DNA of 64,000 nt from Prochlorococcus marinus str. MIT 0918 (GTDB lineage Bacteria; Cyanobacteriota; Cyanobacteriia; PCC-6307; Cyanobiaceae). The DNA lies in assembly GCF_027359415.1 (NCBI RefSeq), contig NZ_CP114780.1, forward strand, positions 62,001-126,000, written 5' to 3'. Every line of letters starts with the position of its first letter. Within the stretch, counting starts at the first letter, position 1. Of the stretch, positions 4,954 to 60,124 are shown piece after piece. A model generated the notes under the pieces. That model worked only from the letters and a program-made list of their open reading frames with translations, was not told the origin of the DNA and did not search any database. Both the position numbers and the translations under genes were made by a program.

Positions 4954-5489
4954 TAAAAGACTTTTTTGTGGTTAGATATTATTTTGTTAGAAACCTAAAC
5001 AATTTAAATATCTTATAGGAAAACTAGGAAAACAAGGGTTAGTTCTAGTTTAAATTTAACCTATCTAGTCTTTACCTAGTATTTTAGATGATTTAATATA
5101 ACTTCTATTTAGTTATTATGTAAAATCTTTTGTGTTAAATAGACTTGTTTTTTTATTTTCATAACTTCAGTTTTTGTTATGTAAGGTTTAATACTATAAT
5201 ATTAGATTGAGAATTCAATTCTATTCCCTCGATAGGAAAAAGATAGGAATTTATGATTAATTCATTTATTAATTGAATCGCCTTTCTTTTGAAAGAGAAC
5301 TATGAACTCTTGGCTTTAAATTCCATGATTTGTTTTTAACATTGATTTTGCCTGAAGGGTTGACAGAGCAATAGCCCCTTGGTAGTATGCATGTACTACT
5401 AAGGGGCTATTGCTCTGTCTTTTCGACTTATGCTATTTACCAAGTACCAAGTTGGAGTCTTCTAGTAGAACATCAATTGGACAAAAGCA
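4954..5489. other. Long intergenic stretch without a convincing gene
   Basis: No open frame with protein-like composition was found on either strand. The only structure seen is the long inverted repeat at 5362-5419, described separately. The upstream part is very AT-rich and could hold the promoter of a short untranslated RNA ending at that hairpin, but nothing in the sequence proves it. Confidence 0.4.
5362..5419 (+). terminator. Long hairpin, terminator-like
   Basis: Arms 5362-5387 and 5394-5419 form a 26-bp stem with one G-U type mismatch around a 6-nt loop. The stem contains a GC-rich part, AATAGCCCCTT on the left arm, and is followed on the plus strand by TTTTC. It can act as a rho-independent terminator with a short U tract. 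No gene ends just before it: the nearest plus-strand stop is about 400 bp upstream, which hints at an unannotated transcript. Confidence 0.6.
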
Positions 5490-49887: not shown

Positions 49888-50028
49888 CTAATTTCTGGAA
49901 CCTAGATAAACAGGTTGCATTAAGCCACCTCCTTCATCATCATCATCTCCGCTATCTTGAAAAAATAAGTATGCAATTAGAATAATTGCTACAGATGAGT
50001 ATATGCTTAGCTCTTGGAATTCGTTCAA
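49888..50028 (-). CDS. 46-residue membrane protein with acidic tail
   Basis: Minus-strand frame with a TTG start (50028), no upstream ATG before a stop, reading NEFQELSIYSSVAIILIAYLF then a DSGDDDDEGGG stretch and LMQPVYLGSRN. The span followed by a run of acidic residues and a conserved-looking Gly-Gly-Gly-Leu-Met-Gln-Pro-Val-Tyr end is typical of a small conserved cyanobacterial family. Function unknown. Confidence 0.6.
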   Translation of the reverse strand: MNEFQELSIYSSVAIILIAYLFFQDSGDDDDEGGGLMQPVYLGSRN

Positions 50029-50167
50029 AAGAAATAAAAAATTTGATTGAGCCTACTCGATAATCTTCAAAAGGGGAAATTTCTTAGAAAGCTATTACAA
50101 AATCTTCATGCAGGTGACTAAATTTATTCTTATGGATTGTTTATTGGAGAAAACGAAACCCGTTTTT

Positions 50168-50497
50168 TTATTCTTTGGACAAACTTGCGCCCCCTCTCTT
50201 TAAGATTTCTCTTTCATTTTTCACTTTTAATGCTGCTTCAAATGCTGTAATTGATGATATTGCAATTAATCCTAGAAAGCCTATATCTTCACCTTGAAAG
50301 CCTGCTGGATCAGAAGGGTCATATGCTAATTGCCTAGAGAAATCAAAATAAACCCAAAATGCAGATACTAGTGAGGTGATCCAATATGCTCTCCAGCGCC
50401 TCTGGTATAAATAACCTGTTCCTAATCCTGGAATGAAATTTAGCAAGGCGGATACCCATCCAGCAGAGGAAGCGATGATTTCGCTTTTTGATTGCAT
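50168..50497 (-). CDS. Membrane protein of unknown function
   Basis: 109 residues with a TM2-domain-like start: ALLNFIPGLGTGYLYQRRWRAYW, then a WITSLVSAFWVYF span and a C-terminal DIGFLGLIAISSITAFEAAL span. TM2-type proteins are membrane proteins of mostly unknown function. Located just upstream of the hli pair. Confidence 0.6.
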   Translation of the reverse strand: MQSKSEIIASSAGWVSALLNFIPGLGTGYLYQRRWRAYWITSLVSAFWVYFDFSRQLAYDPSDPAGFQGEDIGFLGLIAISSITAFEAALKVKNEREILKRGGASLSKE

Positions 50498-50699
50498 TGA
50501 GAATTATTTTAAGAATATAAATAAATACTAGTTCTTTTAGCAAAAATTTTAGTTAATATTTTTAATTGTTATAACCTAGATTTCTCAGTTATTCATAATA
50601 GTTTGATATCCCTTAAGCTATATTATTTTTTTGTTTTAATGAATAAAATATTATTTTATTATCTTTCTAAATTTCACAAAGTCTTGTTTTTATATCCTT

Positions 50700-50909
50700 T
50701 TAAAAAACACCGGGAATTATTTGACCAGTTGTTATATAAGAACCAATTAGTGCTACAAAGCCAATCATTGCCCAGCGGCCATTAGCTTTTTCTGCATCCT
50801 CAACATAACTTGAATAATTTTCTATTAATTGAGGTTGAGCTTCTACAGGAAAGATGTTTTGCCTGTTACCTGATTCAGTTGTTATTTGATCTTGAGTTGA
50901 TGAAGTCAT
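50700..50909 (-). CDS. hli: High-light-inducible protein (Hli)
   Basis: 69-residue one-helix CAB-family protein. The C-terminal half has the pigment-binding ENYSSYVEDAEKANGRWAMI region and the typical end YITTGQIIPGVF. Hli proteins protect photosystems by binding chlorophyll or carotenoid in the thylakoid. The N-terminal 35 residues are polar. It is in tandem with the shorter hli gene at 50922 and upstream of the pcb genes. Confidence 0.9.
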   Translation of the reverse strand: MTSSTQDQITTESGNRQNIFPVEAQPQLIENYSSYVEDAEKANGRWAMIGFVALIGSYITTGQIIPGVF

Positions 50910-50921
50910 TATTTTCTAGGG

Positions 50922-51029
50922 TTAAAATATGCCTGGGATTATTTGACCAGTAGTGGCATAAGCACCAAATGCAGCTAAAAAGCCAATCATTGCTGCCCAG
51001 CCATTAAATTTTTCAGCTTCTGGAGTCAC
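50922..51029 (-). CDS. hli: High-light-inducible protein (Hli), short
   Basis: With the GTG start at 51029 the product is 35 residues starting VTPEAEKFNGWAAMIG and ending TTGQIIPGIF, the standard length for short Prochlorococcus Hli. A longer frame reaches 51122, but its extra N-terminus is not Hli-like, so I prefer the GTG. It lies 12 bp upstream of the 69-residue hli, probably co-transcribed, and divergent from the pcb side. Confidence 0.85.
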   Translation of the reverse strand: MTPEAEKFNGWAAMIGFLAAFGAYATTGQIIPGIF

Positions 51030-51244
51030 AATCAAAAAGTAATGTTGTAAAGCATTATTACATAATATGTAAAGCTTTGTAAAGCAATTTTTGGTTCTTT
51101 TTGCTGCCTTTAGCAGAAACATATGTATGAGGTGTAAAAATCTGCCGGCAATATCTTTTAAAGCAATTCATTTTGTAAGTTGATAGTTTTCCTAGATATG
51201 CATAGCTACATTCTTTTATAAAGGTTTTTATCCATTTTATATTT

Positions 51245-51403
51245 ATGTCTTCTAAAGCAAGCGAAGACAGTCAATTTCAAGATTTCTTTCTCGAATTAAT
51301 GGAATTAACTGGTTGTTCTTATTCAGATTTAACTGAATTAATTGCTTTTCTAAATTTTAATGATCCTAATGAGCTAAAAGAATCAGATGAAAAATCACCG
51401 TAA
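51245..51403 (+). CDS. 52-residue acidic protein
   Basis: Starts MSSKASEDSQFQDFFLELME and ends NELKESDEKSP. Soluble and acidic, with one Cys (LTGCSYS). It precedes pcb1 by 108 bp in the same direction, but a leader element of its own sits between them, so it need not be on the pcb transcript. Function unknown. Confidence 0.55.
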   Translation: MSSKASEDSQFQDFFLELMELTGCSYSDLTELIAFLNFNDPNELKESDEKSP

Positions 51404-51424
51404 TTTCCAAGATAATTTTTTTAT

Positions 51425-51449
51425 TAAATAAAGACCTTTAACTATTCTG
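51425..51449 (+). promoter_or_regulatory. Conserved pcb leader element (pcb1)
   Basis: A 25-nt block, TAAATAAAGACC then TTTAACTATTCTG, identical in all 25 positions to the block before pcb3 and with three differences from that before pcb2. It lies 62 bp before the pcb1 ATG (distance from block end). A TATTCT string inside the block could be a -10 element, so it may be the promoter; a binding site or RNA leader are alternatives. Confidence 0.6.
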
Positions 51450-51511
51450 TCCATATTTAGATAGACGCTTGTACTCTTATGTCAGGTTTTTTGTTTTCAT
51501 TTTAAAAAATT

Positions 51512-52570
51512 ATGCAGACCTACGGAAACCCAGATGTCACCTATGGGTGGTGGGTTGGTAATTCTGTAGTAACCAACAGAGCTGGCCGTTTTATTGGCTC
51601 TCATGTTGGCCACACAGGAATTATTTGCTTCGCGACTGGTGCAAGTTGTCTTTGGGAACTTTCACGTTTTGATCCCTCAGTACCAATGGGACATCAGAGC
51701 TCTATATACCTTTCCCATTTAGCGTCTTTAGGTATTGGCTTTGATGAAGCTGGTGTATGGACAGGAGCAGGTGTTGCAACTATTGCAATTTTCCATTTAA
51801 TCTTTTCTTTGGTTTATGGAGGAGCAGGCTTAGCTCATTCCTTATTTTTTGATCCAGACCTACAAGAAGGTCCAATTGGTCGTGTAGATAAATTTAGGCT
51901 GGAATGGGACAACCCTGACAACCTGACCTTTATCCTTGGGCACCATTTGATTTTCTTGGGTGTTGCGAATATCTGGTTCGTTGAGTGGGCCAGGGTTCAT
52001 GGCATATATGACCCTTCTTTAGGCGCTGTACGTACAATTTTCCCTGGATATGGGGATTTTGGAATGGTATGGGGGCATCAATTTGATTTCCTCACTATAG
52101 ATAGCCTCGAAGATGTTATGAGTGGTCATGCCTTTTTAGCTTTCTTACAAATAAGTGGAGGAGCTTTTCACATTGCCACTAGACAAATTGGGGAATACAC
52201 CAAATTCAAGGGGAATGGACTTCTTTCTGCAGAAGCTGTTCTTTCTTGGTCTTTAGCAGGTCTTTTCCTAATGGGTGTAGTTGCAGCTTTTTGGGCAGCT
52301 GGAAACACAACTGTTTATCCAACAGAATGGTATGGGGAACCATTGCAATTTAAGTTTGGTATTTCTCCTTATTGGGCTGATACTGGCGACATTTCAGATT
52401 GCAAGTACTTTTTTGGACATACTTCTAGGGCCGCTTTGGTCAATGTTCAATATTATTTTGCTTTCTTCTGCCTTCAAGGACATCTTTGGCACGCTTTACG
52501 TGCATTAGGATTCGACTTTAGGCGTATAGCAAAAGCTATTGGCGGTTTAACTGAATCAACAGCTTCTTAG
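51512..52570 (+). CDS. pcb: Pcb divinyl-chlorophyll a/b-binding antenna protein
   Basis: 352-residue six-helix antenna protein of the Pcb/IsiA family that binds divinyl chlorophylls in the thylakoid around photosystem II or I. Diagnostic parts are MQTYGNPDVTYGWW at the start, MGHQSSIYLSHLAS, GIGFDEAGVWTG, FILGHHLIFLG and HTSRAALVNVQYYF. Several conserved histidines in the spans coordinate chlorophyll. It is followed by a perfect terminator and by the minus-strand small membrane protein at 52719. Which photosystem it serves cannot be read here. Confidence 0.95.
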   Translation: MQTYGNPDVTYGWWVGNSVVTNRAGRFIGSHVGHTGIICFATGASCLWELSRFDPSVPMGHQSSIYLSHLASLGIGFDEAGVWTGAGVATIAIFHLIFSLVYGGAGLAHSLFFDPDLQEGPIGRVDKFRLEWDNPDNLTFILGHHLIFLGVANIWFVEWARVHGIYDPSLGAVRTIFPGYGDFGMVWGHQFDFLTIDSLEDVMSGHAFLAFLQISGGAFHIATRQIGEYTKFKGNGLLSAEAVLSWSLAGLFLMGVVAAFWAAGNTTVYPTEWYGEPLQFKFGISPYWADTGDISDCKYFFGHTSRAALVNVQYYFAFFCLQGHLWHALRALGFDFRRIAKAIGGLTESTAS

Positions 52571-52585
52571 CATTAGATTAAAATC

Positions 52586-52627
52586 CCAATAAAAAAGCCT
52601 CGCAGTAATGCGAGGCTTTTTTATTGG
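52586..52627. terminator. Bidirectional terminator after pcb1
   Basis: Perfect 19-bp inverted repeat (52586-52604 and 52609-52627) around a GTAA loop. GC core GCCTCGCA with T6 on the plus and A6 on the minus side, so it stops both pcb1 and the oppositely oriented gene that ends at 52719. Confidence 0.9.
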
Positions 52628-52718
52628 TGCAAATTAAAAATCCTTAATGCTCTTTTCTTAATTTAAAGATTGAGTAAAAGGAAAGTTTGAGATTTTTCTA
52701 AACCCTTTTCAGAAAAAA

Positions 52719-52928
52719 CTAGTCTCTTTTAGCCCAGGGATCGATTCTTTTAGCATCGTCAGAATAATAAAAGAATTGAGAAGCTCCAAAAAATGCTCCT
52801 AAGCCACATAGAGCAGCTCCTAGGTTAAAGCCACCTGATGGCTTGATAATTCCAATGTCAGTTGGGTGAGGAAGTTGGGTGGCGAAATCAAGTAAATGAG
52901 TTGGATCAATCATTGAGTTGGATTGCAA
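52719..52928 (-). CDS. Small single-span membrane protein, pcb-associated family
   Basis: 69 residues: HLLDFATQLPHPTDIG, then KPSGGFNLG, a hydrophobic span (ALCGLGAFFGASQFF) and a charged end. An internal Met at residue 6 (start at 52913) aligns with the paralogue at 54891 and may be the true start. The family pattern is GGF, span, QF, aromatic residue, acidic tail; two further copies are at 53307 and 54891. No known photosystem subunit fits, so the function is open. Confidence 0.8.
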   Translation of the reverse strand: MQSNSMIDPTHLLDFATQLPHPTDIGIIKPSGGFNLGAALCGLGAFFGASQFFYYSDDAKRIDPWAKRD

Positions 52929-53306
52929 TTGTGTGTATAGATAACCCAGGTGGCCACTTTGCCAAACCCGTGCTGACTAATTTTACATCAGCTTTATCAA
53001 ATTTCTCTAACAAGTAAAAACTCTACTTACATTGACAAACAAATAAAAACCTTTCCCTAGTGCTTAAAAAGCATTATTTTTTTTTTTTACTAAGAATTCA
53101 TATGGCATGAGCCTAAAAAACAAAGGAATTTGCACTAAATCTGATTATCTGAACTATTAGGGATATCTTAAAACGAGTTTTATTCTATGTAGCTTGCTTT
53201 TGTTAACTTCTTTAAAGCAAACATAAAAAAGCCCCTTCAATATTTAAAGGGGCTTTTTTATGTTTGCTTTAAACAATCTTTGATGGTTTAGTCCATAACC
53301 ACTCCT
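52929..53306. other. Spacer between antenna genes
   Basis: No gene. Includes a T-run of 13 at about 53078-53090 and the terminator at 53211-53273. On the minus strand the small gene at 52719 has its promoter here. Confidence 0.4.
53211..53273. terminator. Bidirectional terminator between small genes and antenna
   Basis: Perfect 27-bp inverted repeat (53211-53237 and 53247-53273) around a 9-nt loop, with core GCCCCTT/AAGGGGC and A/T tracts on both sides. It terminates the minus-strand gene 53307-53456. No plus-strand gene reads into it from the left. Confidence 0.85.
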
Positions 53307-53456
53307 TTAGTTAGAAGGATCATTGGCGTCTAAGCCGTAGTAAATAAACTGTGTTACTTGAATAAAGGTAATTAATCCAAAAGTTGCTGCGAGTGGATTA
53401 AACCCCCCAACTGTAATAGTTGCTAACAAAGGACTTGAGTGAATGAGTTCAAGCAT
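53307..53456 (-). CDS. 49-residue pcb-associated membrane protein, short form
   Basis: Minus-strand frame starting MLELIHSSPLLATITVGGFN, a span LAATFGLITFIQVTQF, then IYYGLDANDPSN. The order GGF, span, QF, YY, acidic tail is that of the 69- and 71-residue relatives at 52719 and 54891, but the first 20 residues of those are missing. Divergent from pcb2 with 191 bp between, so both could respond to the same signals. Confidence 0.75.
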   Translation of the reverse strand: MLELIHSSPLLATITVGGFNPLAATFGLITFIQVTQFIYYGLDANDPSN

Positions 53457-53554
53457 TGAATCTTAGTGATGTGGAAAATTTCCTTATAGATAAACATAAA
53501 GAGCACAGAAAATCTCATCTCGTTGCATGTTGAAAAATGTTTTTTTATTTCTCT

Positions 53555-53579
53555 TAGATAAAGACCTCTAACTATTCCG
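53555..53579 (+). promoter_or_regulatory. Conserved pcb leader element (pcb2)
   Basis: 25-nt block TAGATAAAGACC then TCTAACTATTCCG, three differences from the identical blocks of pcb1 and pcb3. Ends 68 bp before the ATG of pcb2. Confidence 0.6.
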
Positions 53580-53647
53580 CACAAAACAATGAACCTGCAT
53601 GTAGTGTTCATGGGGAATAGCGCCTTTTTTTCGCTTAAAAAGAAATT

Positions 53648-54697
53648 ATGCAGACCTACGGAAACCCAAACGTCACCTACGGGTGGTGGGCTGGTAATTC
53701 TGGAGTAACCAACCGTTCAGGCAAATTCATTGCAGCTCATGCTGCTCATACAGGACTAATTGCCTTTGGGTGCGGTGCGGCCACACTTGTTGAACTAGCA
53801 GGCTTTGACCCTTCATTACCTATGGGTCATCAAAGTTCTCTTTTCCTTGCACATTTGGCTTCAGTTGGCATTGGCTTTGATGAAGCTGGAGTCTGGACTG
53901 GTGTTGGTGTTGCCAATATCGCGATACTTCATTTAATTCTCTCCATGGTTTATGGGGGAGGAGGACTTTTACATTCCGTATATTTCACAGGAGATATGCA
54001 GGAATCAGAAGTGCCACAAGCCAGAAAGTTCAAATTGGAATGGGATAACCCAGACAATCAAACTTTTATTCTTGGTCACCACTTAATTTTCTTTGGTGTG
54101 GCCAATATTTGGTTTGTTGAGTGGGCAAGGATTCATGGCATTTACGATCCAGCTATTGAGGCAATTCGTCAAGTTAATTACAATCTTGACCTCACTCAGA
54201 TTTGGAATCATCAATTTGATTTCTTAGCCATTGATAACCTTGAGGATGTCATGGGTGGACATGCGTTTTTAGCTTTCTTCCAGATTGGTGGAGGTGCATT
54301 CCATATTGCAACTAAGCAAATTGGTACTTACACAAAATTCAAAGGTAAAGGATTGCTTTCTGCAGAAGCAATTCTTTCTTGGTCATTAGCAGGTATTGGA
54401 TGGATGGCATGTGTTGCTGCTTTCTGGGCCGCAACAAATACAACTGTTTATCCTGAGTCTTGGTATGGAGAAGTTCTTCAATTAAAGTTTGGGATTGCTC
54501 CTTATTGGATAGATACAGTTCCTGGTGGAACAGCTTTCTTAGGTCATACCTCTAGAGCTGCTCTTGTTAACGTCCATTACTACCTTGGCTTCTTCTTTAT
54601 TCAAGGTCATTTATGGCATGCTTTAAGAGCTATGGGATTTGACTTCAAGCGCTTGCTTGATAGAACAGGTCCATTTGGTATACCAAGAACACTCTGA
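53648..54697 (+). CDS. pcb: Pcb divinyl-chlorophyll a/b-binding antenna protein
   Basis: 349-residue Pcb, second of three tandem copies. Shares MQTYGNP, MGHQSSLFLAHLAS, GIGFDEAGVWTG, FILGHHLIFFG and HTSRAALVNVHYYL with the others. The loop after the fourth span is shorter than in the third gene. It follows a divergent small membrane protein and ends in front of a double terminator. The paralogues suggest gene duplication and specialisation for light or iron conditions, but the sequence does not say which. Confidence 0.95.
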   Translation: MQTYGNPNVTYGWWAGNSGVTNRSGKFIAAHAAHTGLIAFGCGAATLVELAGFDPSLPMGHQSSLFLAHLASVGIGFDEAGVWTGVGVANIAILHLILSMVYGGGGLLHSVYFTGDMQESEVPQARKFKLEWDNPDNQTFILGHHLIFFGVANIWFVEWARIHGIYDPAIEAIRQVNYNLDLTQIWNHQFDFLAIDNLEDVMGGHAFLAFFQIGGGAFHIATKQIGTYTKFKGKGLLSAEAILSWSLAGIGWMACVAAFWAATNTTVYPESWYGEVLQLKFGIAPYWIDTVPGGTAFLGHTSRAALVNVHYYLGFFFIQGHLWHALRAMGFDFKRLLDRTGPFGIPRTL

Positions 54698-54729
54698 ATA
54701 CAAAAAGCTTTCTCTTAAGTTGAATAGCT

Positions 54730-54782
54730 TTAAAGAAGATAAAAAAACCCCTAACTTTTAGGGGTTTTTTTATCTTCTTTAA
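54730..54782. terminator. Bidirectional terminator after pcb2, first
   Basis: Perfect 25-bp inverted repeat, arms 54730-54754 and 54758-54782, loop CTT; core ACCCCTAA/TTAGGGGT with T7 and A7 tracts. Stops pcb2 on the plus strand. Confidence 0.9.
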
Positions 54783-54796
54783 CAAATGAGGAAAAT

Positions 54797-54830
54797 AAAA
54801 AGGCAGGGCATAATTTAGCCCTGCCTTTTT
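54797..54830. terminator. Bidirectional terminator after pcb2, second
   Basis: 13-bp inverted repeat AAAAAGGCAGGGC / GCCCTGCCTTTTT (arms 54797-54809, 54818-54830) around an 8-nt loop. It lies between the first terminator and the stop of the gene at 54891, so each convergent gene has its own stop. Confidence 0.85.
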
Positions 54831-54890
54831 TAGTTAACTAAAGCTCTAATAAGAAACCTTAGGTTTGGATAACGTTTTTCTGAAGTGAGT

Positions 54891-55106
54891 TTAACGGGAT
54901 AATTTTTGTCTTTCCGTTCCTTCAAACTTCTCCGGATCGTTACAGTCTCTTGCATACCAATGAAATTGAGATACTTGAATTATTGCAAGTATTCCAAAGA
55001 TAACTGGTACTAATTGGAATCCACCTGATGGCTTTACTAAACCTAAATCTGATGGATGAGGTAGTTGCGTTGCGAAATCCAGCAAATGCGAGAAATCAAT
55101 CATCAA
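54891..55106 (-). CDS. Small single-span membrane protein, pcb-associated family
   Basis: 71 residues, nearly identical in its first 25 residues to the protein at 52719 (MIDFSHLLDFATQLPHPSDLG, KPSGGF), followed by a hydrophobic span and QFHWYARDCNDP. The C-terminus is charged. It faces pcb2 tail to tail and is divergent from pcb3 with about 570 bp between. The function is unknown, but repeated pairing with pcb genes suggests a role near the antenna. Confidence 0.8.
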   Translation of the reverse strand: MMIDFSHLLDFATQLPHPSDLGLVKPSGGFQLVPVIFGILAIIQVSQFHWYARDCNDPEKFEGTERQKLSR

Positions 55107-55589
55107 GACAATTAAAAGTAAGTCAGTTATAGCCTAGAGATTTGCATTATTTACGAGAAAACTTTTTTTTGACATTACTATTAATTTAATGAGCGTAAGA
55201 AACTCGAGAAATTCTTGTGCTTGATTTTAAATCCTATCCATTCATAGATGGCTTATTTCGAGAGTATTTGATTTAAGAGAAGGATCGTATAGAAATGGTT
55301 GAAAAAAAATTTAGAATTCGATAGTAAGATTTAGAGTTTTTTTTGGTTAAGTCAGCTTGAATTGATTTCTTAATGTTTTTTTTTTTTTTTAAGTTCACTT
55401 TTTTAGGTTGTGTTCATATTTCATCGAACCTTTCTTTTCTTGCTCAGCTTTTTTTTTGGTTAACTCTGTAAAGACTTGCACTGCAGTCATTTTCTCTGAT
55501 TTCTCCAATTATGATGCCTTTAAATTTTTTGTTGAAATGGCCTTTAGTTACGAGTTTTTTTTTACAGATCGAAAATATTTCTTACCAAC
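55107..55589. other. Long leader region of pcb3, no gene
   Basis: Contains a T-run of about 14 near 55377-55390. The plus-strand frame 55408-55596 is poorly composed and was rejected. On the minus strand the promoter of the gene ending at 55106 must lie here. Confidence 0.4.
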
Positions 55590-55614
55590 TAAATAAAGAC
55601 CTTTAACTATTCTG
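55590..55614 (+). promoter_or_regulatory. Conserved pcb leader element (pcb3)
   Basis: 25-nt block identical to the pcb1 element (TAAATAAAGACC then TTTAACTATTCTG). It ends 61 bp before the ATG at 55676, which also supports that start over the longer frame from 55646. Confidence 0.65.
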
Positions 55615-55675
55615 CGCATATCTATTGAGCACAGTGTAATCTGCATTGGATATTTGCCTGTATTGCTTAAAAATT

Positions 55676-56761
55676 ATGCAGACCTATGGAAATCCAGAAG
55701 TTACCTATGGATGGTGGGCTGGTAATTCTGTGGTTACCAACCGCTCTGGCCGATTTATTGCCTCTCATGTAGGCCATACAGGCTTGATCTGCTTTGCGGC
55801 TGGTGGTAGCACTCTTTGGGAGCTTGCTAGATACAACCCAGAAATACCTATGGGGCATCAAAGCTCTTTATTCTTGGCTCACCTTGCTTCTATCGGCATT
55901 GGCTTTGATGAAGCTGGAGTATGGACAGGAGCTGGTGTAGCAACCATTGCAATCTTTCACCTTATCTTCTCTATGGTTTATGGAGGAGGAGGACTCCTTC
56001 ATGGAATTCTCTTTGATGAGAATGTAGAAGATAGTGAAGTGTTACAAGCTCAGAAATTTAAGCTTGAATGGAATAACCCAGACAATCAAACTTTTATTCT
56101 TGGACACCATTTGATTTTTATGGGTGTTGCTTGTGTTTGGTTTGTTGAATGGGCAAGGATTCATGGTATTTATGATCCTGCTGTAGAAGCAGTACGTCAG
56201 GTTAATTACAACCTTGACCTTTCTATGATCTGGCAAAGACAATTTGATTTCATTACTATTGACAGCCTTGAGGATGTCATGGGTGGACATGCTTTCCTAG
56301 GATTCGCTGAAATTACAGGTGGAGCTTTCCATATCGTTGCTGGATCAACTCCATGGGAAGAGAAAAGACTTGGCGAATGGAGTAAATTTAAAGGAGCAGA
56401 ATTGCTTTCTGCAGAGGCTGTTCTTTCTTGGTCATTAGCAGGTATTGGTTGGATGGCAATCGTTGCAGCTTTCTGGTGTGCAAGCAATACGACTGTTTAT
56501 CCAGAAGCTTGGTACGGAGAACCATTAGAACTTAAATTTGCTGTTTCTCCTTATTGGGTAGATACTGGTGACCTTTCTGATGCAACAGCATTTTGGGGGC
56601 ATTCAGCGCGTGCTGCTTTGAGCAATGTTCATTATTATCTTGGTTTCTTCTTTCTGCAAGGCCATTTCTGGCATGCACTAAGAGCCTTAGGCTTTAACTT
56701 TAAGAATGTAACTGCATCAATTGGAAATGAGCAAAAAGCAACTTTTACAATTAAGAACTAA
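55676..56761 (+). CDS. pcb: Pcb divinyl-chlorophyll a/b-binding antenna protein (isiB-linked)
   Basis: 361-residue Pcb. The longer frame begins at 55646, but the family-specific MQTYGNPEVTYGWW starts at 55676. It carries an extra loop with VAGSTPWEEKRLGEWS that the other two copies lack. Downstream on the same strand come a small membrane peptide, a 118-residue membrane protein and flavodoxin, which suggests that this copy belongs to an iron-stress group like PcbC/IsiA, although no regulatory site for that was found. Confidence 0.93.
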   Translation: MQTYGNPEVTYGWWAGNSVVTNRSGRFIASHVGHTGLICFAAGGSTLWELARYNPEIPMGHQSSLFLAHLASIGIGFDEAGVWTGAGVATIAIFHLIFSMVYGGGGLLHGILFDENVEDSEVLQAQKFKLEWNNPDNQTFILGHHLIFMGVACVWFVEWARIHGIYDPAVEAVRQVNYNLDLSMIWQRQFDFITIDSLEDVMGGHAFLGFAEITGGAFHIVAGSTPWEEKRLGEWSKFKGAELLSAEAVLSWSLAGIGWMAIVAAFWCASNTTVYPEAWYGEPLELKFAVSPYWVDTGDLSDATAFWGHSARAALSNVHYYLGFFFLQGHFWHALRALGFNFKNVTASIGNEQKATFTIKN

Positions 56762-56817
56762 TTAAGTTGCATTTAATAGATTTTATTTTTTTATATAAAG
56801 TCTTTTAACCAGTTATT

Positions 56818-56845
56818 AAAGCCTCTTCTTTATTGAAGAGGCTTT
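56818..56845 (+). terminator. Rho-independent terminator after pcb3
   Basis: AAAGCCTCTTC / GAAGAGGCTTT stem, arms 56818-56828 and 56835-56845, loop TTTATT, followed by a long T run. Ends pcb3 and so separates it from the isiB side. Confidence 0.85.
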
Positions 56846-56978
56846 TTTTTTAGCCTTTAGTTTGAAAATGGTAAATGTTATTTATAAAGGTAAAAAAAAA
56901 TGCTCAATAGCATAATTTTGATCACATCTTAGTCAAGTCTTTGGTTATAGAATTTGTAGATATTAATGAAATAAGATT

Positions 56979-57122
56979 ATGACTGCTGATGAAATTCAAA
57001 CAGTATCTAAATTAATTTCAGCCCATCCTCCAATAATTATAGGAACACTTTGCATCTTTATGTATATAAGAGGTAAGATTTTAGATAATAATAAAAGATC
57101 CTCAAATATATCTACTTTATAA
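56979..57122 (+). CDS. 47-residue single-span membrane peptide
   Basis: Starts MTADEIQTVSKLISAHPPII, a span IIGTLCIFMYIRG and a basic tail. It is 133 bp beyond the pcb3 terminator and 30 bp before the next gene, so it is likely the start of the isiB-side unit. Unknown function. Confidence 0.55.
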   Translation: MTADEIQTVSKLISAHPPIIIGTLCIFMYIRGKILDNNKRSSNISTL

Positions 57123-57152
57123 GTTCTAACAACATTATTTTTAAACTCTTAT

Positions 57153-57509
57153 ATGGAAATCTTTAAGTATTTTCTCTTTGGAATTAGCGGCTTTAGTATG
57201 ATCTTTTGGGTTGCTGTAATTGCTTTATGGCATACTTATATGTTCCCACGATTATTTAAGGAAGATCGTAATCCAACAAATAATATAGATAAAACTTCTG
57301 CTCAATCGGGATTCAAATTAAAACCTTCTGGGCTTTTTGATAGGTCTAAATATTCATTAAAAACATTTGTTATAGCAGATTTTACACCAGTAGAAGAAAA
57401 TTATTCAATTAATAGGCTCTATACTTCTATGCTTTTAAGTTTAGGTTTCATGTCTTTTATTATCATTACTTATGGTCTTCATAGCGCACTCCCTCAGTTG
57501 CTGTACTAA
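57153..57509 (+). CDS. Two-span membrane protein of unknown function
   Basis: 118 residues with spans at both ends (IFWVAVIALWHTYMF, then LLSLGFMSFIIITYG) and a soluble middle part of about 60 residues. Located between a tiny membrane peptide and flavodoxin. I do not recognise it, but the location suggests a role in the antenna or iron-stress group. Confidence 0.6.
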   Translation: MEIFKYFLFGISGFSMIFWVAVIALWHTYMFPRLFKEDRNPTNNIDKTSAQSGFKLKPSGLFDRSKYSLKTFVIADFTPVEENYSINRLYTSMLLSLGFMSFIIITYGLHSALPQLLY

Positions 57510-57620
57510 GAAAAGAAAAGATAGTTACTCTTAAAAGTATAAGATTAACCTTTGAATTGTAATTTCTTTTCATCAGGAATTTAAAAGATGTCTTAGGACA
57601 TATTTGATTAAATATTTTCA

Positions 57621-58142
57621 ATGACAATAGGAATTTATTTCGCCACAACAACAGGAAAAACGGAAGACATTGCAGAAAGGATTCATGGCTTGCTAGGCCA
57701 AGCTAATTCTCCAAAAGATATGTCAGATGTTGATGATCTAAATGAATTTGCCACTCATGATGGAATCATTTGTGGGATACCTACTTGGAATACGGGAGCA
57801 GATTCAGAGAGATCAGGCACGGCTTGGGATACTATTTTGGAGGAAATAGGAGAACTTAATCTTTCAGGTAAGAAAGTGGCTATTTTTGGTTTAGGTGATT
57901 CATCAACTTATACAGAAAACTATTGCGATGCAATGGAAGAACTGCATAGATATTTCAAACAAGCTGGAGCAACAATGGTTGGTTATGTAAATACGAATGA
58001 TTATACTTTTGACGAATCAAAAAGCGTAATTGGATCTACTTTCTGTGGGTTGCCACTTGATGAAGATAGTGAATCTGATATGACTGATACAAGAATATCT
58101 CAGTGGGCTGAGCAGTTGAAACAGGAGATGCCTGGCCTATAA
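57621..58142 (+). CDS. isiB: Flavodoxin
   Basis: 173-residue FMN-binding flavodoxin, which replaces ferredoxin as electron carrier of photosystem I when iron is scarce. The FMN phosphate loop is ATTTGKTED, the isoalloxazine loop includes PTWNTGADSE and the second flavin segment is FGLGDSSTYTENYCDA. Length and motifs fit the long-chain type. It stands 111 bp after the two-span protein and about 0.85 kb after pcb3. Confidence 0.95.
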   Translation: MTIGIYFATTTGKTEDIAERIHGLLGQANSPKDMSDVDDLNEFATHDGIICGIPTWNTGADSERSGTAWDTILEEIGELNLSGKKVAIFGLGDSSTYTENYCDAMEELHRYFKQAGATMVGYVNTNDYTFDESKSVIGSTFCGLPLDEDSESDMTDTRISQWAEQLKQEMPGL

Positions 58143-58182
58143 AGGCTTTTAGATAGAACTCTGCAAAAAATAGATTCTAATA

Positions 58183-58386
58183 TTAATCATCAAATTCAGG
58201 CTTAGGTTTCTTCTTTACTTTCCCAGTTAGAAGTTGATGTAGAGCATCTAATGAGTTATAGACTTCTTTTAACTCTGTCAGTTCAGGGAGTAAACCATCT
58301 TCAGTAAGAATTTGGTCTAAATCTCTTAGCTCTTGGCGTATATAGCGCAAATGAGAGCTAATCTCTTCTCGTTTACTTGTGGACAT
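58183..58386 (-). CDS. Helical protein of unknown function
   Basis: 67-residue charged helical protein with two halves (REEISSHLRYIRQELRDL and ELKEVYNSLDALHQLL) and a basic end KVKKKPKPEFDD. No family. It ends 40 bp after isiB and a 9-bp palindrome (58418-58439) lies 32 bp upstream of its start. Confidence 0.6.
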   Translation of the reverse strand: MSTSKREEISSHLRYIRQELRDLDQILTEDGLLPELTELKEVYNSLDALHQLLTGKVKKKPKPEFDD

Positions 58387-58964
58387 TTACTTAAACATTT
58401 ATTTGACGATGTTATGCTCAATGAGATACTTCTCATTGAACAAACTCAATAATAATAGAGATCGTTCCCATAGAACAACCTTAAAATTCTAGATCTTTGT
58501 CGTTAGGCTTCATTAGAGCAAAATAACTAGGAGTTAAAAGTATTCGAAAAAAGAGCAATAAATGATCAGATTAAGCTCTTAGCTTTTGAATTGACTACTA
58601 GTTAGATACTATTAACCAGAGTCCTAATACCCAAATATCAATATGGATTTACTTTATTACTACCTTTTGTTAATTAGCTTAAGGTTAATATATCTTTCTG
58701 ATTAATTTCATTTTAATTATAAATACATTTCTCGAATTTCCTAAATGATTCATTTCTTTCTTAAGTGTTTATATAAATTGTTAAAATGATAAGAAGATTG
58801 TTTTGAATGCAATATGTCTCCACCTTCTCTCCTCCAAAATAAGGACTTCTCCAAAAGGTTAAGGAAACCTTTTAAATGGATTATTTATCTCTAAAGATTT
58901 AAATTAACTCACAGTAGGAATTTTTATTAGTTATATTTTCTAAAAAGTTATTTTCTTAATATCA
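58387..58964. other. Long intergenic region with two small hairpins
   Basis: No convincing gene. TCAATGAGA (58418-58426) and TCTCATTGA (58431-58439) form a 9-bp hairpin or operator close to the start of the minus-strand gene at 58386. A second short stem, AAAAGGTT/AACCTTTT, lies around 58854-58874. The rest is AT-rich and gives the promoter of the gene at 58965. Confidence 0.45.
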
Positions 58965-59141
58965 ATGGAGTTTAGGTCACTTTTGGATAAAGAAATAAGG
59001 CAAGGCAATTCATATGCTCTTAATCAATCATTTTTCATGGGAGGCATACTCGTTTTTTTTAACTTGTTACTTATGTCAGGCGTAGGGTTGTATTGGATCA
59101 ATCCAGCAGTGCATCTATATTTTTCTGGTAAGCCACTTTGA
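58965..59141 (+). CDS. 58-residue membrane protein, unknown
   Basis: Starts MEFRSLLDKEIRQGNSYALN, a long hydrophobic span GGILVFFNLLLMSGVGLYW and the tail NPAVHLYFSGKPL. No family known. It is 113 bp before the pentapeptide-repeat gene. Confidence 0.6.
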   Translation: MEFRSLLDKEIRQGNSYALNQSFFMGGILVFFNLLLMSGVGLYWINPAVHLYFSGKPL

Positions 59142-59254
59142 TTAAATGACTTGACTACCCATTGTTTTATCTATAGTAATGATTATATAAATTGTGTGAT
59201 AGATAATTAGAATTAGAGAGATAATTATTTTCTGACTCCTCACGACTAAATTTC

Positions 59255-59806
59255 ATGTCGTCATTTTTTTCTTTTAAAAAGTTGTTTGCTTTAGCAGTAA
59301 CACTTCTGGTTTGGCTTTGGACTTGTTTGCCAGCTGAGGCAGTCTTGAATGTAGGAGATGAAGTACCTAATTATGTTAGGTCTCAAATTACAGGAATCGA
59401 TCTTCATGGCCAGGACTTGTCTAAGTCTTCTATAGCAGGCGCTACTGCTAGAGATGCAAATTTTAGTGATGTTGACTTACATGGGACGGTGGTTACATTG
59501 GCTGACCTCAAAGGGTCAAATCTCAACGGTATAGATTTAACAGACACGCTTTCTGATCGAGTTAACTTTCAGAAAACTGATTTGAGAAATGCTGTCCTTG
59601 TAAACATGATTGCTTCTGGAAGTAGTTTTGCTGGCGCACAAATAGATGGTGCTGATTTTAGTTTTGCAGTTCTTGATAGTGATGATCAGCGCAATCTTTG
59701 CAAAATTGCCGAAGGTGTTAACCCTGTTACGGGGGTTTCAACTAGTGAAAGTCTTGAATGTTTAGATAATGAAGGGGGTTATAAACCTGCTATGCCAGGG
59801 AGTTGA
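59255..59806 (+). CDS. Pentapeptide-repeat protein, lumenal
   Basis: 183 residues: a signal peptide of about 28 residues (LFALAVTLLVWLWTC) and tandem pentapeptide repeats forming a right-handed beta helix, with A(N/D)LxG-type units such as ADLKG, SNLNG, IDLTD, TDLRN and ADFSF. Exported to the thylakoid lumen or periplasm. Cyanobacterial members of this type have been found in the lumen, function unclear. The two cysteines near the C-terminus could pair. Confidence 0.85.
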   Translation: MSSFFSFKKLFALAVTLLVWLWTCLPAEAVLNVGDEVPNYVRSQITGIDLHGQDLSKSSIAGATARDANFSDVDLHGTVVTLADLKGSNLNGIDLTDTLSDRVNFQKTDLRNAVLVNMIASGSSFAGAQIDGADFSFAVLDSDDQRNLCKIAEGVNPVTGVSTSESLECLDNEGGYKPAMPGS

Positions 59807-59929
59807 GAATTAGTATCTATTTTATTAGTTATAAATGAAGCTTTTAATATATTGATTGGCAGACATTTCTGGTAATTAGCCTTGAAGAAGAGTGATAGTG
59901 AAATTGACATCCTAATTCTTAAGGAGTCA

Positions 59930-60124
59930 ATGAATCATTTAAGACCATATACAGTTCGTTATCGATCTTTTGATAATGGCAAGGAAGAGAACTGCTTTTA
60001 TGCAAGTGATTCTTTCGAAGCTAGGACACTTGCGATGGAATTCAATAAATATATACATGACCATCCCAACTGTATTGATTTAATTCGTTGCGAAGAACAA
60101 CTTATTAGTCCTATTAATACTTGA
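59930..60124 (+). CDS. Soluble protein of unknown function
   Basis: A frame with a TTG start at 59882 exists, but a strong AAGGAG (59921-59926) stands 3 nt before the in-frame ATG at 59930, so the 64-residue form is preferred. It contains TVRYRSFDNGKEENCFYASD and SFEARTLAMEFNKYI. No family assigned. Confidence 0.6.
   Translation: MNHLRPYTVRYRSFDNGKEENCFYASDSFEARTLAMEFNKYIHDHPNCIDLIRCEEQLISPINT

Follow-up and report, generated by a model that had tools for sequence, protein, structure and literature searches.

Small membrane proteins encoded among the pcb genes of low-light Prochlorococcus are probably parts or helpers of the expanded Pcb antenna

Introduction

Light harvesting in low-light Prochlorococcus relies on an antenna of many Pcb paralogues, which belong to the Pcb/IsiA/CP43 antenna proteins and among which the PcbC/G type forms the photosystem-I or iron-stress group. 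CP43 is surrounded by small helices, PsbK, PsbZ and Psb30, PsbK having a lumen-out orientation and PsbZ spanning the membrane twice, and a further small subunit, PsbH, has its amino end in the cytoplasm. The Hlip/Ycf39 and Pam68 proteins are helpers of photosystem II assembly. Here we describe a family of unnamed small membrane proteins whose genes lie among pcb genes in a stretch of 64,000 nucleotides from Prochlorococcus marinus str. MIT 0918 (contig NZ_CP114780.1, positions 62,001 to 126,000), hereafter the window. Judged from their sequences and gene order, these proteins are probably parts or helpers of the extra Pcb antenna.

The pcb genes match the psbC model, as homologues of CP43 do. 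In the consulted sections of PMC11559063, pcb expands at the LLVII grade, is kept in the later low-light clades and is lost in the high-light ancestor, and the small family follows this pattern of expansion and loss. The consulted part of PMC5451487 reports that PcbD and PcbE rise in strain SS120 under azaserine and makes no mention there of the small proteins.

Results

The small family occurs with expanded pcb sets

Three minus-strand small genes, one of each of three subgroups that we call alpha, beta and gamma, are interleaved in the window with three plus-strand pcb genes, and they are the only copies in the window's genome (1,789,313 bases; search at E up to 10, with which a 38-row profile agrees), where eight pcb genes score above the family cut-off. 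Of 400 genomes in the taxonomic family, 94 were matched by a 3-row profile; four of the 94 were weak matches in genus g17 (E about 0.005 to 0.008), none of which appeared at E 0.01 with the 38-row profile. With the latter, 32 of 271 near-complete genomes were matched. On the same 271 genomes the pcb matches were counted including CP43 and CP47 pieces, and at least seven such matches were found in 31 of the 32 carriers against 4 of the 239 non-carriers, the remaining carrier having six. Genus g17 appears to be a high-light group and the larger non-carriers Synechococcus. A sample of the phylum gave 9 matches in 386 genomes, eight from the same family and one weak (G678, E 0.014), and the titles of the 78 named loci listed were all Prochlorococcus or uncultured Synechococcaceae. 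Among the genomes searched, the small family occurs almost only with expanded pcb.

Most one-span copies in complete genomes lie beside pcb genes of the low-light expansion

We then considered nine complete genomes, the high-light-like G017 being left out, which hold 66 pcb genes: 7 of PcbA type, 13 of PcbC/G type and 46 of a low-light-expansion group that stands with PcbA in trees. The distance to the nearest pcb gene was at most 1 kb for 22 of the 25 one-span copies of the small gene. Random placement gave a mean of 0.29 and a maximum of 4 in 2000 trials, and joint rotation of the copies of each genome gave a mean of 0.28, with 0 of 5000 rotations reaching 22. Counted from the pcb side, a one-span small gene was present within 1 kb of 23 of the 46 low-light-expansion genes, 0 of the 7 PcbA-type genes and 0 of the 13 PcbC/G-type genes; no within-genome shuffle of the labels reached 23 (0/20000), the genes of one cluster not being independent. 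The absence of PcbC/G-type neighbours, together with the grouping with PcbA, makes a role on the photosystem-II side look likelier than a ring linker, and the antenna served would probably be a photosystem-II-side Pcb. The initial annotation had proposed accessory subunits that keep Pcb rings on a photosystem or connect the two; distribution and gene order favour the accessory role, and the 0/13 count speaks against the ring-to-photosystem linker.

In the wider set of the 78 loci listed, some of which end at contig edges, a pcb gene lay within 1 kb of 49 of 50 beta copies (about half of them from near-identical genomes), 7 of 7 gamma copies and 5 of 7 unclassified copies. Whether copies always flank pcb genes, a check named in the initial annotation, has a mixed answer: all but three of the one-span copies of complete genomes do, as do nearly all beta and gamma copies of the wider loci, but not the two-span copies (0/5 in complete genomes) or 18 of 38 alpha copies.

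One of the genomes we take to be that of SS120. Its eight pcb positions fit the order of SS120 accessions in the legend of PMC2644788 (A; C, G; D, B, H; F; E). In this numbering a single accession is unused between D and B; from B to H four are unused. One small gene was found in this SS120-like genome between D and B and three between B and H, as would be expected if the free numbers belonged to small genes annotated there. Together with tree positions, the same order suggests that the pcb genes of the window are of the PcbH, PcbB and PcbD types.

The link to pcb is repeated outside the main cluster by dispersed pairs with pcbE and pcbF. In the SS120-like genome and five further loci an alpha gene follows pcbE on the same strand, with 17-19 nt from the stop codon to the ATG and no obvious Shine-Dalgarno site before this ATG, and in two genomes a pcbF-type gene has a divergent small copy. 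The pcbE-type and pcbF-type genes of the window's own genome have no small-gene neighbour, and a search for a remnant of the small gene 3' of its pcbE gave no convincing match.

The three subgroups are paralogues under strong purifying selection

The relatedness of the three window proteins, noticed in the initial annotation, was confirmed by pairwise comparison of beta with alpha (57% over 54 residues, E 6e-23) and of gamma with alpha (40% over 47 residues, E 4e-12), and the three-way alignment has 12 invariant columns. The ratio of the proportions of non-synonymous (pN) and synonymous (pS) differences was 0.06-0.15 for alpha (orthologues from four genomes, including one genome's second copy), 0.03-0.16 for beta (seven genomes) and 0.13-0.31 for gamma (four genomes), so that the small genes are under strong purifying selection. 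Over the first 29 codons, alpha and beta of the same genome differed with a pS of 0.72-0.89 and a pN of 0.11-0.12 in 4/4 genomes. This high synonymous difference indicates that selection, not recent copying, keeps the amino-terminal segment alike, and it rules out gene conversion as the source of the common amino-terminal half.

Among orthologues, the alpha genes of G000, G010, G039 and G078 had a pS of 0.19-0.40 and the beta genes of the same four genomes 0.60-0.80; the low alpha values suggest that alpha has been exchanged recently, among genomes or among copies. In loci L072 and L073 a near-repeat is inserted in the amino-terminal segment before PHPSD.

The conserved segment is predicted on the lumen side

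In 81 of 98 sequences there was more lysine and arginine carboxy-terminal to the span than before it; in 14 the two sides were equal, 1 had fewer, and in 2 the motif was not found. From this bias we predict that the tail faces the cytoplasm and that the conserved segment faces the lumen. The AlphaFold2 model of the one-span form, of low to moderate confidence (predicted local distance difference test, pLDDT, 68.5; predicted template modelling score, pTM, 0.32), has helices at residues 5-13, 31-55 and 57-68. A two-span form has its first 60 residues in common with the one-span form (99.9% profile match, eight long members), and a second helix is added in its low-confidence model (pLDDT 61.0).

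The second helix of the two-span form carries the motif SYRWKQFxGVQ...AGPxxIFFP, and this form is mostly distant from pcb; it was seen in loci L067, L071, L080, L081, L083-L086, L154, L155 and L168-L170. In L078 it looks split into frames at 4983-5180 and about 5462, with ~280 bases between them, which suggests that the gene is broken or has undergone the sort of truncation that could yield a one-span form.

Comparison with known small proteins

None of the three window proteins had a match in Pfam or NCBIfam at E up to 10. Across the other members, the matches found, including AmoC, DUF2272 and TMEM37, involved one member each, fell below the cut-offs and were considered chance, as were those to reovirus sigma C (E 0.89) and to FXYD and Usp18 (E about 1) in PDB sequence searches, which returned nothing below E 0.8. 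PHROGs gave a single match of one member at 0.095, the phage records held no relative, and none of 35 pattern matches in viral contigs was confirmed; a phage origin was dropped. A literature search, made largely outside subscription papers, gave no title or abstract opening that names these small proteins.

The Pcb/IsiA/CP43 antenna proteins are the linked partners of the small proteins at gene level, and the small proteins are not fragments of them, having no match to PF00421 or TIGR03041. PsbK, PsbZ and Psb30 resemble the small proteins in having one or two spans, and their partner, CP43, is a Pcb homologue; the genome has separate psbK and psbZ genes, however, and no supported profile similarity to PsbK or PsbZ was found. 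In hhalign comparisons of the one-span and two-span sets, for which reversed-sequence controls gave probabilities of 0.0-0.5%, PsbK (PF02533) reached 0.9% and 1.9%, and PsbZ/Ycf9 (PF01737) 0.3% and 0.8%, respectively. PsbK was also absent from the four weak Pfam families matched by 38 members at E up to 1. PsbH (PF00737), whose profile contained 29 of 30 fetched PsbH loci, has a comparable length and a gapless register of PLNSEYGKVAPGWG with PHPSDLGLVKPSGG; its probability of 0.8-1.4% (1.4% with a single-comparison E of 0.038) is over the reversed control (0.0-0.5%) yet unsupported, the small proteins are predicted in the opposite orientation, and the true psbH is elsewhere in the genome. The Hlips are likewise small one-span proteins, and two hli-like open reading frames, recognised by eye, lie at 50700-51122 of the window. 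What we take to be the Hlip motif is seen as EKANGRWAMIGF in the frame at 50700-50909; by eye it is absent from the alignment of the small proteins, which have no match to the Pfam chlorophyll a/b-binding domain. The lack of Pfam matches and the negative PsbH, PsbK and PsbZ comparisons are in line with the initial annotation, which saw no known Psa, Psb or Pet subunit that fits.

Discussion

We consider that there is about an even chance that the small family supplies the enlarged Pcb antenna of low-light Prochlorococcus with accessory subunits. Its members would be lineage-specific thylakoid proteins with one span, sometimes two, composed of a short amino-terminal helix and a loop on the lumen side, one membrane helix and a charged cytoplasmic tail. 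On the lumen side, the strongly conserved segment (HLLDFATQLPHPSDLGLVKPSGGF) might dock on a common surface, either a loop that Pcb proteins share or the core of photosystem II; particular Pcb copies might be selected by the variable span and tail. Wedged between Pcb and core, or between one Pcb unit and the next, the small proteins could then hold a larger antenna row, a role akin to that of PsbK, PsbZ and Psb30 around CP43, with which kinship is not implied. A wider scenario, which we hold tentatively and rate below an even chance, is that the birth of a dedicated small linker family went with the low-light Pcb expansion, a common lumen dock and paralogue-specific spans allowing a larger, mixed antenna, and that the high-light lineages lost both together.

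Several observations weigh against the accessory-subunit reading. The four non-carriers with at least seven pcb matches (4/239) and the one carrier below seven are exceptions to the association. Among the 78 loci listed only 20 of 38 alpha copies and 2 of 9 two-span copies have a pcb gene no more than 1 kb away, so that homologues away from pcb, the observation named in the initial annotation as contrary to its proposal, exist in part of the family (18/38 alpha, 7/9 two-span), and in complete genomes the two-span form is beside pcb in 0 of 5 cases. Copy number does not equal pcb number, with 1 one-span copy for 7 pcb genes in G056, 3 for 8 in G000 and 5 for 8 in G010. As pcb genes duplicate and move as clusters, a common history may account for some of the linkage. 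Within the window, terminator-like sites stand between the small genes and their pcb neighbours, and the literature searched turned up no expression, location, binding or proteomic support.

Two rivals stand out: a factor for assembly or pigment loading, and a neighbour that is unrelated in function and adjacent for historical reasons. As assembly factors, the small proteins would give transient aid to Pcb insertion, chlorophyll b loading or handover to the photosystem, much like Hlip/Ycf39 or Pam68 for photosystem II, and be absent from the finished complex. The distribution and linkage data fit this explanation too, the tight pcbE-alpha pair suits co-translational help, and helpers need not be present one to one with pcb, as the small copies are not. 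Several diversified paralogues beside particular pcb types would nevertheless suit structural partners better, and no domain match rose above cut-off; we think this explanation distinctly less probable than that of accessory subunits. We also find it unlikely that the family has a separate low-light membrane function, for example as a small subunit of another thylakoid complex, its pcb neighbourhood being historical. Such a history would account for the occurrence, in several lineages, of alpha and two-span copies that are not linked to pcb, with none of the five two-span copies of complete genomes beside pcb, and for the four unlinked alpha loci that carry a pentapeptide-repeat gene related by eye to the one at 59255-59806 of the window. 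It is opposed by the dispersed copies of complete genomes, which still pair with pcb, by the rotations of clustered copies, none of which matched the observed adjacency, and by the absence of a small gene within 1 kb of any of the 20 PcbA- or PcbC/G-type genes. Very improbable, finally, is a role in antenna turnover, with the small proteins as regulators or adaptors that bring in a protease or tune Pcb abundance as light or nutrients shift. The terminator-like sites of the small genes and the divergent starts beside two pcb genes permit separate regulation, and an adaptor function could reside in the variable tail on the cytoplasmic side, but conservation is highest in the segment predicted on the lumen side rather than in the tail, and here too no domain match was above cut-off.

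If the wider scenario is true, a CP43-type antenna would have in the small proteins its own dedicated non-pigment linkers, a Pcb counterpart of the phycobilisome linker proteins. A family gained, lost and placed with the pcb paralogues offers specific candidates for missing antenna parts, and the account in the consulted sections of PMC11559063 of how pcb expanded and was lost in Prochlorococcus would gain a second component.

Gene layout and neighbouring features in the window

The three reading frames are present on the minus strand where the initial annotation placed them (Table 1). Of its product sizes, 69, 49 and 71 residues, the second stands; the other two become 64 and 70 when counted from conserved ATG starts, which lie 5 codons inside a non-conserved TTG at 52928 for beta and 1 codon inside an earlier TTG for alpha. 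Two small genes are divergent from a pcb gene, as had been noted, gamma with a gap of 191 bp to the gene at 53648 and alpha with 572 bp to that at 55676; the beta gene is convergent with the PcbH-type gene. Seven terminator-like sites were counted on both strands of 52400-55800 against a shuffle mean of 3.3, and since each small gene is followed by its own stem-loop, these genes may be transcribed separately in the window. Rfam gave nothing at gathering scores over 50000-60000.

Table 1. Positions of the small genes, pcb genes and terminator-like sites in the window
Feature	Position	Strand	Basis
pcb gene, putative PcbH type	51512..52570	+	TIGR03041 1.2e-157; tree position and accession order in the PMC2644788 legend
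Terminator-like stem-loop 3' of the beta gene	52586..52627	-	consensus match only
Small membrane protein, beta subgroup, 64 residues (MIDPTHLLDFATQLPHP...DPWAKRD), stop included in the coordinates	52719..52913	-	conserved ATG start
Terminator-like stem-loop 3' of the gamma gene, between the gamma and beta genes	53221..53263	-	consensus match only
Small membrane protein, gamma subgroup, 49 residues, short amino-terminal form	53307..53456	-	
pcb gene, putative PcbB type	53648..54697	+	TIGR03041 1.2e-165; tree position
Terminator-like stem-loop 3' of the alpha gene	54797..54830	-	consensus match only
Small membrane protein, alpha subgroup, 70 residues	54891..55103	-	conserved ATG start
pcb gene, putative PcbD type	55676..56761	+	TIGR03041 1.7e-165; tree position

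Downstream of the pcb cluster, a plus-strand frame at 57153-57509 encodes a protein of 118 residues that has two hydrophobic stretches and matches nothing in Pfam or NCBIfam; it is located between the cluster and a gene at 57621-58142 that is flavodoxin-like by eye. The pentapeptide-repeat protein at 59255-59806 (plus strand) has its by-eye relatives in L063, L074, L077 and L078, loci in which an alpha copy is present and pcb is not; loci of this kind may mark an older site of the small family. Another plus-strand frame, at 58965-59141, encodes a 58-residue membrane protein with the C-terminal sequence FSGKPL. Frames ending in ISGKPL, similar to it by eye, are found near alpha copies in four other loci (L064, L066, L076 and L163), and these proteins may form another small family of this gene neighbourhood.

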